Below, in pieces: positions 728 through 6,063 of a DNA stretch of 64,000 bases. The stretch's first letter is position 1. Every line of letters begins with the position of its first letter. The stretch spans positions 159,372 through 223,371 of the forward strand of contig NZ_MTSB01000010.1 in the NCBI RefSeq assembly GCF_002093745.1. Direction: 5' to 3'. This DNA is from Pseudomonas graminis. GTDB taxonomy: Bacteria; Pseudomonadota; Gammaproteobacteria; Pseudomonadales; Pseudomonadaceae. Made by a program: the position numbers and the translations under genes. The notes below the pieces were generated by a model. The model was given only the letters and a program-made list of their open reading frames with translations. It did not search any database and had not been told where the DNA came from.

Positions 728-970
728 GGATTGCCCCTACCTTTTTACTCTTGCTCGGGACGTTCGCGTTTCTTGTCGATACCGGCATTTCTGACAGTTA
801 CGCGAAACTCCTTCCCATGCTCAACTTGAGTCGCGGTGAATCGAATGCCTCAGGCACGATGGCCGGCGATTATCAGAGCTGTAGGACTGCTGAAATAACC
901 AGACCCAAGGATCGGGCTGGACCGCGTGCCTGAAAACACTGTGTACATCCAACGGACGGAGACACGAACC
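728..970. other. Intergenic region between gbcA and the chitinase gene
   Basis: This 243-bp gap holds the upstream region of the chitinase gene. I see no convincing gene in it. A short TTG-initiated frame at 751-933 has no ribosome binding site and no recognisable product. No clear terminator for gbcA is visible. Confidence 0.4.
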
Positions 971-3403
971 ATGCTCAACCCTAACGTCATAAAGCAATAT
1001 AAAAACAAGAAAATCGATGCAGCCTCTGACATGCCGGACATCAGAGGCAAGAAGATACTGATGGGCTTCTGGCATAACTGGGGTTCTGAACCGGGCCAGG
1101 GTTACCAGCAGGGTCTGTTCAAGGAAATGGCGCTGACTGACATTCCAAAAGAATATAACGTTGTGGCCGTGGCGTTCATGAAAGGCGCTGGCATCCCCAC
1201 CTTCAAGCCCTATAACCTGAGCGACGCTGACTTTCGCGACCAGGTGGCGCAACTGAATGCGCAAGGCCGTGCGGTGCTGATTTCCCTCGGCGGGGCTGAT
1301 GCGCATATCGAGCTATGCACTGGCCAGGAAGAAGCGCTGGCGTATGAAATCATTCGTTTGGTTGAAGTCTATGGCTTTGACGGTCTGGACATCGACCTTG
1401 AGCAAGCCGCCATTACGTTTGCCGATAACCAGACCGTATTGCCAGCGGCACTGAGAATGGTACGCGAGCATTACGAAACCGAAGGGAAGCATTTCATCAT
1501 CAGCATGGCACCGGAGTTCCCCTACCTGAGAGCCCCTCAAAAACTGGCGATCTTTAACGAGATCAGGAAGTACTTTCCCTTCCTGAACCCGCTGGTGTCG
1601 TTTCTTGAATCGCTTAGAACCCAAGGTGCGTACATCAAATATATCGAAGCGCTGGAGGACATTTACGACTTCATCGCACCCCAGTATTACAACCAGGGGG
1701 GTGACGGTGTCTGGGTCGATGAGCTGAACATGTGGGTCACTCAAAGCAACGATGCCCTGAAGAAAGAGTTTCTTTACTACCTGACCGATAGTTTGATCCA
1801 CGGTACACGTACCTACACAAAAATCCCGGCCGACAGGCTGGCTATCGGTCTACCCACCAACAGAGACGCCGCCGCTTCCGGTTACGTGATTGATATTAAT
1901 CACGTCAAAAATGCACTGAAAGAGCTGGAGGACGCTGGTAATCCTATTCGCGGTCTGATGACCTGGTCAGTCAACTGGGATGCCGGAAAAAACAAGGCAG
2001 GTGAGGAATACAACTGGGAATTCAAGAATCGTTATGGCTACTTGACCGGAGGTGAGACGCCTGTGCCTGACACACCGTCAGTGCCTGCCGGCCTCAAATC
2101 AACCGAACAGACTCCGACATCGGTGACACTGAGCTGGTCGCCCTCGACAGGCGCGCACCCGATCCGGCAATACGAGTTGCGCCGCAACAACAGCGACGCC
2201 CTGTTCTCGGACAGCCCAGCTTACACTGATACCGGCCTTCAGCCTGGCACCACTTACAGCTACCAGGTGCGTGCGATAGATGTCATGGGCAACACCTCTG
2301 CATTTTCCGCAGCGCTCAGCGTACTGACGCAGGGGCAAGGCGGAGGTAATACAAAACCGACCGCGCCCGTTTTGAGCCTTGAAGAGGTCACAGAAAACAG
2401 CGTAACGCTGACATGGACGGAGTCCACCAGTAACAGCGAAATCAAAACGTATGTCGTTGAACGGGATGGCTGGCCTTTAGAAATAACCTGGAGTATCGAG
2501 ACTCGCTACGTCGATAACAACCTCATTCCCAGTACCAACTATGAATACCGCGTCTTTGCGCAGGATGCCGAATCTGAGTATTCACCGCCCGGTAATTTGC
2601 TGAAGGTCCGGACCGGTGACGGCCCGCCTGTACCCCTCAACCCCCCAGAGCCTGATGACTTGAGATCAACCGTACAGACCACATCGTCGGTGACGCTGGA
2701 GTGGAGCCTTGTCGAACACCCTCATGGTCCGGTTGTCTATGAACTGGTCAGGGATAAGGTCCCGCTGGGTACAGTCGAAAAGCCTCCTTTTACCGACACA
2801 GGGCTCTCGCAAAGCCACCTGTATGGTTATCAGATCAAGGCAACGGACAGTCTGGGGAACAGTTCCATACTGTCTGAAGAAATCCTGGCGACAACCAAGA
2901 GTGTGCCATCTCCTGATCGGCCTAACCCTCCTGAAAACCTGCGTCAGACAGGCGCAACGGCGACCAGTGTTTCATTACAGTGGGACAAGCCTCAAAGCCC
3001 CTCGAAAAATGGGAACACGCTCTCAAGCCCTACTGAAGTAGCGTCTTACCATGTTTACTACATCGGCGGTAAAACAGTGAATCTTGATTCAACGACGTTC
3101 ACGTACACCGCTGAAGGGCTGACCGCTGGCAAGATGTACCAGTTTTTGATAGGCGCGCGGAATATAGACTCAGACCTATCTGGCCCCAGCAATGTTGTGC
3201 AGGCGTTCACCAGCGCGGCATTGGACGAGTGGGCACAGAATGTTGAATACGTGAAAGGCGATAAGGTGACGTATAACGGCGCTACTTATATCTGCATCAA
3301 TCCTCACCGCTCACAATCAGACTGGGCGCCAGGCAGTGCGCCGACCTTATGGGAGCTCTGGGTAGAGAAGGTGTATCGCGACCTCCCAAAAGAATGGCAG
3401 TGA
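971..3403 (+). CDS. GH18 chitinase-like hydrolase with FnIII repeats and C-terminal CBM5/12
   Basis: 810 residues from ATG 971, preceded by ACGGAGACACGAACC; an earlier in-frame GTG at 926 lacks a ribosome binding site. Residues about 25-370 form a glycoside hydrolase family 18 barrel with the DGLDIDLE signature at 137-144 (proton donor Glu144). Several fibronectin type III modules follow (about 375-765, recurring TSVTLSW-like strands). The C-terminal 45 residues (WAQNVEYVKGDKVTYNG..Y) resemble a type 5/12 chitin-binding domain. The protein likely hydrolyses chitin or related beta-1,4-GlcNAc polymers. No N-terminal signal peptide is visible (MLNPNVIKQYKNKK), which is odd for a presumably extracellular enzyme, so non-classical export is implied. 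It stands alone and converges with etfB. Confidence 0.88.
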   Translation: MLNPNVIKQYKNKKIDAASDMPDIRGKKILMGFWHNWGSEPGQGYQQGLFKEMALTDIPKEYNVVAVAFMKGAGIPTFKPYNLSDADFRDQVAQLNAQGRAVLISLGGADAHIELCTGQEEALAYEIIRLVEVYGFDGLDIDLEQAAITFADNQTVLPAALRMVREHYETEGKHFIISMAPEFPYLRAPQKLAIFNEIRKYFPFLNPLVSFLESLRTQGAYIKYIEALEDIYDFIAPQYYNQGGDGVWVDELNMWVTQSNDALKKEFLYYLTDSLIHGTRTYTKIPADRLAIGLPTNRDAAASGYVIDINHVKNALKELEDAGNPIRGLMTWSVNWDAGKNKAGEEYNWEFKNRYGYLTGGETPVPDTPSVPAGLKSTEQTPTSVTLSWSPSTGAHPIRQYELRRNNSDALFSDSPAYTDTGLQPGTTYSYQVRAIDVMGNTSAFSAALSVLTQGQGGGNTKPTAPVLSLEEVTENSVTLTWTESTSNSEIKTYVVERDGWPLEITWSIETRYVDNNLIPSTNYEYRVFAQDAESEYSPPGNLLKVRTGDGPPVPLNPPEPDDLRSTVQTTSSVTLEWSLVEHPHGPVVYELVRDKVPLGTVEKPPFTDTGLSQSHLYGYQIKATDSLGNSSILSEEILATTKSVPSPDRPNPPENLRQTGATATSVSLQWDKPQSPSKNGNTLSSPTEVASYHVYYIGGKTVNLDSTTFTYTAEGLTAGKMYQFLIGARNIDSDLSGPSNVVQAFTSAALDEWAQNVEYVKGDKVTYNGATYICINPHRSQSDWAPGSAPTLWELWVEKVYRDLPKEWQ

Positions 3404-3468
3404 TCCCGGTACTGACACATGCCTGCCGTAATCGCTCATGAAAAGGGCGCGGTAGCGCAATGATGAAG

Positions 3469-3516
3469 CGACTTATCCACAGAGCCTCAGGGTATTCATG
3501 GATAAGTCGTTTTTTT
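3469..3516 (+). terminator. Rho-independent terminator of the chitinase gene, with a DnaA box in its stem
   Basis: Perfect 11-bp inverted repeat CGACTTATCCA (3469-3479) and TGGATAAGTCG (3499-3509), a 19-nt loop and seven Ts (3510-3516), 66 bp after the stop codon. The left arm and start of the loop contain a perfect TTATCCACA box (3473-3481). Confidence 0.75.
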
Positions 3517-3640
3517 AAGGGCCAGATAGCTCGGAGATCAATGGTTTATCCGAGCTACTTTTCAGGCAAGCCGCTGTCTATTTTTTGCTCAAACGGCTGC
3601 AACCGGCGTTTTTAGTGGCGTACAGAAGAACGCAAACACC

Positions 3641-4033
3641 TTATCCACAGAGACACCAACAGGCTTTGGGCATAACTTTATAAACGCAAGCGCTGCTGTG
3701 GACAACGTTCAGAATGGCTGGAAAGAATGCGACTGAATGAATACGACACCCTCAGCGCCAAGCCCTGATCACTTTTTGAACGATTCTTTAGAAGCCTCTG
3801 TTTAAAAGGCTTCCAGACGACCATGAACAACTTATCAACAGGCAGGCCAACAGGGATTGTGGGCAAGTCAGACGTACTTTTTGTACAGCCTCCGAAAAAA
3901 ACCAATAAAAATAATGGCTTAAGCTGATCGTTTTTTGAACAGCATGACACAGACCACGTTTTACAAGGGCTTCAGGCTTTCACAAACATATTATCCACAG
4001 CCGCACGCACAGAGATTGTGCGTAAGTGCAGCG
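3641..4033 (+). repeat. Degenerate long repeats that each begin with a DnaA box
   Basis: Three segments starting at 3641, 3832 and 3991 align beyond the box itself. The first two share CCAACAGG after the box. The second and third share ACAG-purine-GATTGTG followed by AAGT. Each unit is about 43 bp. They lie in the 643-bp convergent gap, which otherwise shows no gene; it is visibly richer in A+T than its surroundings. Confidence 0.6.
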
Positions 4034-4046
4034 AAGCAACCGCGCC

Positions 4047-4853
4047 TCACCTCAAAACCCCCTCATCGACCAACAGTTTCAGGATGGCAGCCGCTCCTTC
4101 ATCAGGGTGTACGCCCTTCAACACCTGCCCACCGCCCCCACTTGCCTTGGCGGTGGCCGCTTTCATACGATCAGCACCGCTCTTGGCCTTGATGACTTTC
4201 AGACGTTTCGGCCGTGGCCTGGCGGCTTGCAGCGCGTGGTCAGTGAATAACTCATCGACCACCCTTTGAGTCTCACTGACGTCCAGCGCGCCGCGCTGCG
4301 CAGGGCCGAACGCACTTTGTCGGGGTTTGGGAGCTGCGTTATCCACAGTTGCCACAAACGGCAAGCGAACCTTGAGGCGGCGACGTTGACCACGCGGCAG
4401 GGCTTGCAGCACCAGCGCAGTGCCGTTATCCAGTGACTCGACCTCTGCCAGCCCTGTCACCACTGGCCAGCCGAGGCCCTCGGCCAGCAGAAATGGCAGC
4501 ATGCCAGAGCCTTCACCGGTTTCAGCCTGGCTGCCGGCCAACACCAACTGCGCACCCGAGTCGCGTATGTACTCCGTCAACGCGAACAGTGCATCGTCAC
4601 CGTCTGCCTGCTCAAGCACATGCAGCTCGCTCAAGCCCATTCCCAGGTAGGCGCGCAAGGCGGGTTCTTCAGGATTGCCGGCATGCAACACTTGCAAGTT
4701 ATCCCCAGCCAGCTGCAAGCCAAGCTCTACTGCGCGTGCGTCCTGTTCAGCGCGTCGCGCCCGACCGGATGTCGGGTGCGCGCCCACAGAAACAAGGCCG
4801 ATGACGGACACCGCCGGTTTATCCACAGACGAATCATTCAGTTCAGGCTGCAT
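4047..4853 (-). CDS. etfB: Electron transfer flavoprotein beta subunit linked to dimethylglycine oxidation
   Basis: 268 residues. ETF beta subunits bind AMP and, with the alpha subunit, carry electrons from flavin dehydrogenases to the quinone pool. The family pattern is visible as LVLAGSQAETGEGSGMLPFLLAEGLGWP and the later GQRRRLKVRLPFVATVDN. The ATG at 4853 follows GGGGAG with 7-nt spacing and overlaps the end of etfA by 11 bp, implying translational coupling; a GTG one codon earlier is the alternative. It is the last gene of the dgcA-dgcB-etfA-etfB block, so it probably serves the dimethylglycine dehydrogenase rather than fatty-acid oxidation. Two DnaA boxes lie within it, coding Val-Asp-Asn and Val-Asp-Lys. 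Confidence 0.85.
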   Translation of the reverse strand: MQPELNDSSVDKPAVSVIGLVSVGAHPTSGRARRAEQDARAVELGLQLAGDNLQVLHAGNPEEPALRAYLGMGLSELHVLEQADGDDALFALTEYIRDSGAQLVLAGSQAETGEGSGMLPFLLAEGLGWPVVTGLAEVESLDNGTALVLQALPRGQRRRLKVRLPFVATVDNAAPKPRQSAFGPAQRGALDVSETQRVVDELFTDHALQAARPRPKRLKVIKAKSGADRMKAATAKASGGGGQVLKGVHPDEGAAAILKLLVDEGVLR

Positions 4854-6063
4854 CACGCGTCTCCCCGTTACGCCATGCGTCGACCGCTGCGATCAAGGCC
4901 CTCAGGATGTCGGCACTGTCACCAATCACTGACAAGTCAGCACGCTTGATCATGTCGCAGCCTGGGTCCAGATTGATCGCAATGACCTTGTCGCAGGCAC
5001 CGATACCTTGCAGGTGCTGGATGGCCCCGGAAATACCCACAGCCAGATAAACCCGTGCCGTGACCCACGTGCCGCTCGCGCCCACCTGACGCTCACGTCC
5101 CATGTAACCGTCGTCCACCGCCACCCTAGAGGCACCCTCAGTTGCGCCGAGCGCCATCGCTGTGCGGTGAAAAAGATCCCAGTCCTTGACGCCATTACCG
5201 CCCGACAGAATGAACTCTGCTTCAGCCATGGGGATAACGGCAGGATCGACAGCAACCGCGCCAAGGTCCTCGATACGCGGCAGGCTACGCGCCACGTCTG
5301 TGGATAACTCGACGGGCAATGCTTCATGCCGGGTTTCGCTGACAGGCTCGGCGCACTCGACAGCGGCCAGAATGAGACGTGCCAATGGCCGAACCAGGTC
5401 TTCACGCCCTGCCCCGGCGCGACTGATGCACTGTTGGTCTTTGATCTGCCAGACGCGCGTCGCGGGGCGCTCGCCGAGGCTGGCTGCAAAACGTCTTCCC
5501 AGTTCGCCACCGCCAGTGCGGCTGTCAGGAAGTAACCAGTGCCGCGGGCTGAACTGGTTATCCACAGCACACAGCCCTTGCACACGTTGCTCAGGTGAAT
5601 AACCGCTGAACGCATTGCCGTCGAGCAGCAACAGGCGATCCACCCCCGACGTATCGAACGCGGTCTCTTTATGTTCGCCGAACACAACCGCCAGCACTGC
5701 GCCGTCGGCACCCGCCAACTGGCGCGCCAGGCCCAGCAGGTCGCGGTCATGGCTGGTCAATCGACCGCCGACCATGTCGGGAACAACGCTGATGTAGAAC
5801 GCTGGCTCGGCCACCGCGAACAGCGGCAGCTGGACCTCGGCTGCGACCGAGCGCCTGACGGTGCCGCCCTGTTGCGCGCCACTGCGGTCGATGCGCTTGA
5901 TACCGTTCGGCCCCATGAAGCCCAGGCCATGCACGTTCTTGCGCATCAACCCGTTTGGCCCCATCCAGCTGCTTTGCGCAGGTTGCATCGCCGCGTGCAG
6001 CGGGTGCAGACGATTGCGGGTAATCCATTCGGCCCGCGGATCGCGGCGGATAATATCGCTCAT
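4843..6063 (-). CDS. etfA: Electron transfer flavoprotein alpha subunit, long form, dimethylglycine pathway
   Basis: 406 residues, longer than the usual 310-320 of ETF alpha subunits. The C-terminal FAD domain is clear: RQVGASGTWV, then VGISGAIQHLQGI and AINLDPGCDMIKRADL. The extra length is an N-terminal extension of about 90 residues with a duplicated MGPNG motif (WMGPNGLMRK and FMGPNGIKRI). Its ATG shares ATGA with the dgcB stop codon, so translation is coupled. Together with EtfB it should accept electrons from DgcA/DgcB. Two perfect DnaA boxes lie inside; the one at 5299-5307 is read in frame as TTA-TCC-ACA (Leu-Ser-Thr), using a TTA leucine codon that is very rare in such genomes. Confidence 0.87.
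   Translation of the reverse strand: MSDIIRRDPRAEWITRNRLHPLHAAMQPAQSSWMGPNGLMRKNVHGLGFMGPNGIKRIDRSGAQQGGTVRRSVAAEVQLPLFAVAEPAFYISVVPDMVGGRLTSHDRDLLGLARQLAGADGAVLAVVFGEHKETAFDTSGVDRLLLLDGNAFSGYSPEQRVQGLCAVDNQFSPRHWLLPDSRTGGGELGRRFAASLGERPATRVWQIKDQQCISRAGAGREDLVRPLARLILAAVECAEPVSETRHEALPVELSTDVARSLPRIEDLGAVAVDPAVIPMAEAEFILSGGNGVKDWDLFHRTAMALGATEGASRVAVDDGYMGRERQVGASGTWVTARVYLAVGISGAIQHLQGIGACDKVIAINLDPGCDMIKRADLSVIGDSADILRALIAAVDAWRNGETRDAA

Follow-up and report, generated by a model that had tools for sequence, protein, structure and literature searches.

DnaA-ATP recycling loci are known mainly from Escherichia coli and its close relatives. PMC5010248 maps datA of E. coli to 94.6 min and its oriC to 84.6 min, a separation of about 0.46 Mb. 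Published passages on datA describe an IHF site between the boxes as required, and from the sequence comparison made here its same-strand boxes are 162 bp apart. In the published DARS passages, boxes I and II face each other. E. coli DARS2 requires both IHF and Fis; a 5-bp shift of the Fis site was worse than a 10-bp shift, and conservation of Fis and the DARS2 core is described as specific to E. coli-related gamma-proteobacteria (passages of PMC4245941). DnaA-box clusters described from B. subtilis and S. coelicolor lie outside oriC and near the origin, as does the locus reported here; those of B. subtilis are presented in the passages concerned as solely titrating DnaA, and a Fis module is not part of that description. 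Passages of PMC12371093 report that E. coli boxes accumulate toward the origin, which resembles our observations, although density along the chromosome is treated there and the modules of Pseudomonas are discrete, each with a fixed internal geometry. That paper does not mention Pseudomonas in its main text, and a limited search of the open-access literature found no Pseudomonas equivalent of the array.

All seven TTATCCACA sequences of the window (the whole 64-kb stretch of DNA analysed) lie between 3473 and 5566, where a first-pass annotation had placed them; shuffling gives 0.16 per window by chance. As that annotation also claimed, G directly follows all seven perfect boxes, one-mismatch copies are present at 3697 (-), 3832 (+) and 4699 (+), three perfect boxes lie between convergent genes and four in etfB/etfA, and the box at 5299 is read TTA-TCC-ACA. 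Each of the two etf genes has two of the four boxes, and the one at 5299 covers etfA codons 253-255. Further one-mismatch boxes occur at 5229 (-), 6104 (-) and 6202 (-). The features of the locus, with box conservation counted among 80 relatives, are as follows.

926..3403, + strand: GH18/fibronectin III (FN3)/CBM5-12 chitinase-like gene, convergent neighbour
3473..3481, + strand: perfect DnaA box; the surrounding hairpin resembles a terminator (T run present, extent about 3465-3513; fold z -4.5)
3576..3675, + strand: predicted module 1 (Fis-type dyad 3576-3590, box III 3641-3649, weak box II 3653-3661, inverted box I 3667-3675)
3767..3866, + strand: predicted module 2 (Fis-type dyad 3767-3781, box III 3832-3840, reading TTATCAACA, weak box II 3844-3852, inverted box I 3858-3866)
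3926..4025, + strand: predicted module 3 (Fis-type dyad 3926-3940, box III 3991-3999, weak box II 4003-4011, inverted box I 4017-4025)
4047..4856, - strand: etfB (electron transfer flavoprotein beta), carrying two boxes
4339..4347, + strand: simple DnaA box within etfB; box at the equivalent place (1700-1735 from the etfA start) in 56/80
4819..4827, + strand: simple DnaA box near the etfB start, less conserved (18/80)
4843..6063, - strand: etfA (electron transfer flavoprotein alpha), carrying two boxes
5299..5307, - strand: simple DnaA box within etfA, codons TTA-TCC-ACA, kept in 74/80
5558..5566, + strand: simple DnaA box within etfA, kept in 75/80

The perfect word TTATCCACAG occurs 104 times in the genome vs. 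13 times for the reversed word, and it was found in 199/199 genomes of the genus, mostly far above the reversed-word control. The first-pass annotation had asked whether this is a top cluster; with 7 boxes in 2.1 kb it is the densest among the 100 boxes listed of 104, and the next separate 2.1-kb region among those 100, which adjoins dnaA, holds 5. A similar box density across the genome was not seen: random placing of the 104 boxes gave at most 4 per 2.1-kb window in 2000 trials. The window cluster, on contig C1, does not lie beside dnaA with dense oriC boxes; dnaA and its own box cluster are on contig C39.

The boxes at 3641, 3832 and 3991 share one layout: a Fis-type dyad comes first, the DnaA box follows 58 bp further on, and relative to that box a weak one on the same strand stands at +12 and an inverted one at +26. 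The box at 3473 belongs to no module (no Fis dyad; box II, 1/8; box I, 4/8), and the free-standing etfA/etfB boxes are likewise without module geometry. Among 259 perfect array-side boxes from 80 loci, the dyad signature G-nn-YR-n5-YR-nn-C stands at -58 in 173 and at -59 in 50 (background mean of 1.82 per offset for the same boxes), so that a Fis site is predicted at one of these two positions in 223/259. A set of 60 modules from 22 loci and the window, hand-picked among 97 references (fourth or extra boxes, L005, L051 and L082 were left out), has the dyad in 58 without any gap to the box. When the model was built without the dyad columns, the dyad still fell exactly at -58 in 24 of 30 held-out loci, some of them near-duplicates (mean over offsets, 0.27). 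It is not an ANR/FNR box, for which the consensus is TTGAT-N4-ATCAA; the half-sites here are 9 apart, and inspection ruled this identity out.

Of the three boxes, the outer one (box III) is usually perfect and is the strong box of each Pseudomonas array module. Inverted box I matches 5.81/8 consensus positions in 174 dyad-bearing boxes, while the +26 position scores 1.34/8 in 224 etfA/B-embedded boxes and 2.30/8 in 61 other boxes of the window's own genome. Box II averages 3.3/8 in etf modules and is not box-like; the top offsets of the etf set do not include +12. Same-strand boxes of the arrays are 149-193 bp apart, and module spacing shifts in helical-turn steps (classes 150/161/172 and 172/182/193). 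Binned by eye, these classes change on the tree at least 6 and at least 8 times, respectively, and the unbinned lengths at least 17 and at least 15 times.

The 80 loci used for conservation are the best 80 of 591 and hence represent close relatives. The annotation had suspected selection on the box sequence within etfA, and in these relatives synonymous codons are indeed constrained at both etfA boxes. Conservation at the etf locus, which it had proposed to check, holds in part: boxes are kept in the 80 nearest loci, but family-wide only 8/55 etf loci have at least three boxes. A further 47/55 have none or one, and etf loci outside the window's genus mostly have none. Conservation at etf therefore extends over only a part of the genus of the window, together with three genomes from one other genus. 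Within the window's genus, G307, G154, G300 and G113 have no or a single box at etf, and all four have box-side matches elsewhere. The full array is missing from the fetched etf stretch (contig ends included) in 15 genomes, 13 of which have a strong triple elsewhere in the assembly, and array form is unchanged where several kilobases part the array from etfB. A degenerate pattern for the etfA box matched 74/199 genomes and was rejected as a genome count; it missed the box-bearing G168 and is too strict. The sequence data support a selected, non-oriC DnaA-box locus that is kept in close relatives.

Matches to the module model occur in 28/28 Pseudomonadaceae genomes tested (E≤0.01) and, in other families, in 15/73 order-sample genomes (E≤1e-5). 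Eight out-of-family loci, found with the full model and with box I used as a print filter, were fetched; box II is perfect and boxes I and II are both strong in 8/8, and 7/8 carry the dyad at -58 or -59. Every scan match listed has the dyad except L171 1588. The genome under study has only 10 module matches at E≤0.01, divergent from one another, and among 66 fetched boxes beyond the cluster 4 have the dyad at -58, most being no modules. It encodes DnaA and a Fis-sized HTH_8 protein (110-aa frame).

Modules are found at several loci and on both chromosome arms, and most lie within the inner, origin-proximal third (43/45 at E≤1e-6; 61/69 over all listed rows; the p-values treat related genomes as independent). 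Location typing covered 82 rows at E≤1e-6 from 19 genomes, among the matches listed; some ‘closed’ genomes consist of 2-4 contigs, G000, G194, G197 and draft genomes were left out of the location counts, and G078 (two rows) was added only to the inner-third count, its length taken as 5.32 Mb. Two weaker matches fall on the terminus half (G310, G311), and a canonical strong-pair module copy lies on the terminus side in G000 (C9:43186) and G168 (2.01 Mb). In six relatives with a chromosome of essentially one contig, the array is 418-524 kb from dnaA; the etf neighbourhood is known for five of the six, and the window's own genome is in contigs.

The modules resemble E. coli DARS1 and DARS2 in their three-box core, with the same orientations and the same 12/14-bp start-to-start spacing, box III of DARS being placed by sequence reading. 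The outer box of the module lies 12 bp behind box II on the same strand, a rule that is our own reading of the E. coli sequence, and boxes I and II face each other at 14 bp, fitting in place and orientation with strengths of 5.8/8 and 3.3/8 in etf modules. It is this inner pair that is important in E. coli DARS, and in the etf modules it is weak. The Fis requirement described in passages on DARS2 has a counterpart in the Fis-type dyad, and the helical-phase sensitivity published for DARS2 is a further likeness. The nearest E. coli Fis signature on that side, as read from sequence, is 156 bp from box III vs. 58 in the modules, which also have no clear IHF site. Pseudomonas modules further differ from DARS in having their strong box outermost and in being tandem, at several loci and mostly origin-proximal. 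Other observations against a DARS reading of the locus are that the etf position is not kept family-wide (8/55), that most boxes of the window's own genome are no modules, and that the origin-proximal place is that of datA in E. coli.

The likeness to datA, which the first-pass annotation had proposed, lies in an origin-proximal box cluster (datA is at about 0.1 genome from oriC, the array of six relatives at 418-524 kb from dnaA) and in same-strand boxes that are spaced by about 160 bp and enclose a bend site, which in the arrays is a predicted one. Pseudomonas arrays differ in having a Fis-type dyad where datA has IHF, and in their inverted +26 boxes, tandem modules and several loci. The IHF-like site reported at 3536-3548 between boxes sits outside the conserved modules. 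Among 67 arrays, the IHF consensus WATCAANNNNTTR is exact in only 2, copies with at most one mismatch average 0.72 per array vs. 0.53 in resampled sequence (no clear enrichment), and no clear IHF site placed as in datA (between boxes 2 and 3) or as in DARS2 was found. IHF as the bending site of the arrays was rejected, its consensus being near the resampled level. Because IHF sites are not clearly enriched, membership of the datA class is unsupported; the Fis-type dyad and DARS-like three-box arrangement also speak against it, while the part of the claim that concerns a selected, non-oriC box locus stands.

In our judgement the chances are about even that predicted Fis-DnaA modules with DARS geometry make the locus a DnaA-control array, which may reactivate, inactivate or titrate DnaA. 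A datA-like sink or inactivator is possible, if doubtful. Here, same-strand boxes spaced by about 150-193 bp and flanking a bend would capture ATP-DnaA shortly after origin copying and either retain it or stimulate its hydrolysis, with Fis replacing IHF. The 162-bp box distance of datA, the 0.42-0.52 Mb from dnaA in six relatives, and the concentration of affinity in outer boxes and simple conserved etfA/B boxes all suit this explanation, which accounts neither for the DARS spacing nor for the boxes at +26 (and +12) and fits poorly with the near-resampled level of IHF sites and with modules at several loci on both arms. The simple boxes in etfA and etfB, lacking module geometry, also suit a plain titration cluster as in B. 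subtilis, which would do no more than buffer free DnaA, Fis being incidental. Boxes are frequent genus-wide (199/199 genomes) and crowd toward the origin (in G168, 9/134 boxes lie in the 1.32-4.5 Mb part, the 100 listed in position order reaching 5.56 Mb), as they do in E. coli according to passages of PMC12371093. Titration is nonetheless unlikely, as it needs neither a fixed 58-bp Fis distance nor an inverted partner box nor helical phasing.

A role outside replication control appears quite improbable, be it as a chromosome-folding site or as an element, regulatory or structural, that serves neighbouring genes and responds to DnaA or Fis. Fis is a general nucleoid protein and box 3473 lies within a terminator-like hairpin, which would agree with such a role; yet the window array sits between convergent genes, array form holds at several kilobases from etfB, a strong triple is found elsewhere in 13/15 genomes without the full array at etf, and the arrays have no Rfam family match in the seven loci tested. 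The only Rfam match in those loci, NrsZ, was in a locus of another genus, and an sRNA explanation was rejected. Recurrence at several loci would also be expected of a dispersed or selfish repeat that happens to include a DnaA box, to which we give very little credence: the window's own genome has only 10, mutually divergent matches at E≤0.01, and the etfA boxes are under synonymous constraint.

Under the DARS-geometry reading, three Fis-DnaA modules would lie on one strand between convergent genes, with four more boxes, mostly conserved, in etfB/etfA. DnaA would bind the outer box III of each module, usually a perfect box, and more DnaA protomers would sit head to head, as in the DARS core of E. 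coli, on the two weaker boxes (a same-strand one at 12 bp and, 14 bp beyond it, a facing one). On the side of box III, at a distance of 58 bp, Fis would bend the DNA, and assembly may in this way follow growth phase. Because spacing keeps neighbouring modules on one face of the helix, they probably act as a single looped complex. Copied early, the array would alter the pool of usable DnaA. We think that the module is a compact DARS2-type element in which nucleotide exchange on DnaA would be gated by Fis, and in which the strong outer boxes may also act as a sink. The sequence itself shows the sites and their geometry, conservation, phasing and location; binding by DnaA and Fis, protomers meeting head to head, and any influence on the nucleotide state of DnaA or on initiation are predicted.

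Speculatively, and with considerable doubt, the Pseudomonadales may put one Fis-gated three-box module of DARS geometry to two opposite uses. Near-origin arrays with strong outer boxes would be sinks or inactivators and the terminus-side canonical strong-pair copy a reactivator, with initiation timing set jointly by affinity polarity among the boxes and by origin distance. Given its matches in the Pseudomonadaceae and in other families, a Fis-DnaA module would provide an entire order with candidate loci for replication timing that lend themselves to deletion and relocation, and the influence of box affinity, helical phase and origin distance on such elements could be tested on natural variation.

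The perfect DnaA box TTATCCACA occurs seven times in the window, each time within 3473-5566 (expected 0.16 per 64 kb), in agreement with the first-pass annotation, which had claimed seven copies there. The whole genome holds 104 perfect boxes, compared with 13 for the reversed word, and the window cluster is the top 2.1-kb stretch among the 100 of these boxes that were listed. The same annotation had placed the cluster outside an oriC context; as dnaA lies on another contig (C39:152472), flanked by dense boxes of its own, the window locus is not oriC. The word TTATCCACAG is found in all 199 genomes of the genus sample, mostly in several tens of copies (about 11 to 109) vs few for the reversed control. 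Two genomes, G113 and G154, have few copies, and no boxes at etf either. In genome G168 (C1:141182-150010), 15 perfect boxes recur with a period of exactly 630 bp, probably as a long tandem repeat, and at a second locus of the window's own genome (L172, G000:C1:104500-108000) four boxes lie in near-identical copies at steps of 233, 233 and 319 bp.

The gene order in the window is the end of gbcA, a chitinase-like gene (GH18/FN3/CBM) and, on the opposite strand, etfB, etfA and two oxidoreductase-type genes. Downstream of etfB is an array of same-strand boxes, which persists even at several kilobases' distance from that gene. Conservation was assessed in 80 named Pseudomonas loci, the best 80 of 591. 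Among their 259 perfect array-side boxes, 173 are accompanied by a Fis-type dyad (G-nn-YR-n5-YR-nn-C) whose centre lies at -58, and for a further 50 the centre is at -59 (on average 1.82 per offset); inner boxes are better in this -59 group (II, 5.0/8; I, 6.0/8). Dyad, box III, a weak same-strand box II (+12) and an inverted box I (+26) form a predicted module, of which there are three in the window between the chitinase-like gene and etfB:

3576-3675, module with box III at 3641
3767-3866, module with box III at 3832, the single-mismatch copy TTATCAACA that the first reading had also located
3926-4025, module with box III at 3991

The dyads at 3576-3590, 3767-3781 and 3926-3940 overlap a degenerate DnaA-like word (etf-module mean 5.7/8), which recalls the Fis/DnaA overlap reported at E. 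coli DARS2.

Sixty modules, chosen from the window and 22 loci, could be aligned over 129 columns with no gap; the dyad is present in 58 and takes its strict published form (GnnYAnnnnnTRnnC, as printed in PMC8682772) in 32. A model scan found at least three modules in 62/80 loci. In 15 genomes the fetched etf stretch lacked a full set, cases at contig ends counted; 13 of these carry a strong triple at another place in the assembly. Not every box is a module: outside the cluster, 4 of the 66 boxes fetched from the own genome have the dyad at module distance, as does none of the 224 boxes within etfA/etfB. The window box at 3473 has neither dyad nor inner boxes and sits in a terminator-like hairpin. 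Because the scan model includes the dyad columns, a second model, R2, was made from the box side alone and run on 32 genomes (28 from other genera). It matched in 27, and at the best box-side position per locus the Fis signature lies at exactly -58 in 24 of 30 loci, some of them near-duplicates (mean over offsets, 0.27).

Successive modules are 149-151, 160-162, 166-173 and 172, 182-183 or 192-193 bp apart, with looser spacing (166-173 bp) in syringae-group rows. A 10.7-bp period fits the 18 distinct spacings (R 0.66; 7 of 5000 uniform sets did as well). Spacing classes, binned by eye, changed at least 6 and at least 8 times on an etfA tree that omits the box columns; lengths left unbinned changed at least 17 and 15 times. 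That the changes retained amount to about one helical turn suggests that helix face matters for module spacing.

Within etfA, the boxes at nucleotides 498 and 757 are kept in 75 and 74 of the 80 loci; in etfB, the box near 1700-1735 (counted from the etfA start) is present in 56/80 and that at etfB nucleotide 30 (near 1237 on the etfA count) is poorly kept, in 18/80 (20% in the codon analysis). When 81 etfA genes were aligned by codon, the words of the etfA boxes came 5th and 9th for identity among 1210 windows, and the Leu-253 codon is TTA in 75 genes and TTG in 6. Together these points support the earlier claim of DNA-level selection at the TTA-TCC-ACA box, and point to such selection on both etfA words. 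Conservation at etf holds for most of these 80 loci; in the wider family only 8/55 etf loci have at least three boxes (five from the window's genus, three from genus g6).

Module matches extend to 28/28 Pseudomonadaceae genomes (E<=0.01) and, with stricter filters (E<=1e-5), to 18/76 genomes sampled across the order, of which three belong to the window's family. Other genera carry modules at places other than etf, e.g., at distances from dnaA of 0.52-0.55 Mb or 0.04-0.05 Mb. Genera g12 (L235/L236, five modules) and g6 (L238/L239, two) have arrays ~37-50 kb from dnaA and away from etf, and g9 (L229-L231) a single strong module ~0.52-0.53 Mb from it; the NrsZ sRNA is close to the module in L209, the G221 copy. 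Where the chromosome is essentially one contig, the inner third of the replichore contains 43/45 loci at E<=1e-6, and no locus lies beyond half; for all rows listed plus genome G078 the figures are 61/69 and 2. In six relatives the distance between the strong array and dnaA is 418-524 kb.

Position, early replication and the simple boxes in etfA/etfB would suit a DnaA-inactivating role like that of datA, the main rival reading, which we consider possible but less likely, while inner-box geometry and Fis point to DARS instead. Position alone cannot choose between them: according to PMC5010248, E. coli datA is weaker when moved to the terminus, and a regulated DARS2 is expected in the model to tolerate an origin-proximal site. 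DnaA-box density rises toward the origin in E. coli and Salmonella (PMC12371093, whose main text lacks the word Pseudomonas). Among the papers listed from open-access literature, no title or abstract opening named a Pseudomonas datA, DARS or Fis-DnaA module, which is weak evidence of absence.

Spacing and orientation resemble those of E. coli DARS1 and DARS2, which in the same orientation (box III placed from sequence) have box III, box II at +12 and a facing box I 14 bp on; boxes I and II are described as facing each other in PMC8682772. In the modules, the inverted box fits best at +26 in both sets examined, and in 35 modules from other loci the same-strand box fits best at +12. Inverted box I scores 5.81/8 in 174 dyad-bearing boxes vs 1.34/8 in 224 etfA/etfB boxes and 2.30/8 in the 61 further boxes of the own genome. 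In each of eight loci fetched from other families, box II is perfect and box I scores 7-8/8, and seven of the eight have the dyad at -58 or -59. A canonical DARS-like core, CTGTTCACA-12-TTATCCACA-14-TGTGGATAA, stands at 4175-4209 of L282 (G000:C9:39000-47000) and 2736-2770 of L280 (G168:C1:2012000-2017500). The first of these, the own-genome copy C9:43186 (III, 6/8; II and I, 8/8; dyad at -59), has flanks that align with the G168 locus at 2.01 Mb, where the same boxes and dyad lie about 2.0 Mb from dnaA. Relative to this copy the etf modules reverse the affinities (III perfect; II, 3.3/8; I, 5.8/8). In E. coli DARS2 a sequence match to the Fis signature, a putative site, lies 156 bp away on the side of box III, and DARS2 needs IHF too, as stated in PMC4245941. 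Inner-box geometry and Fis favor a DARS-type reading, and in the preferred explanation, judged from sequence to have about an even chance, the locus would be a DnaA-control array of DARS-type modules gated by Fis.
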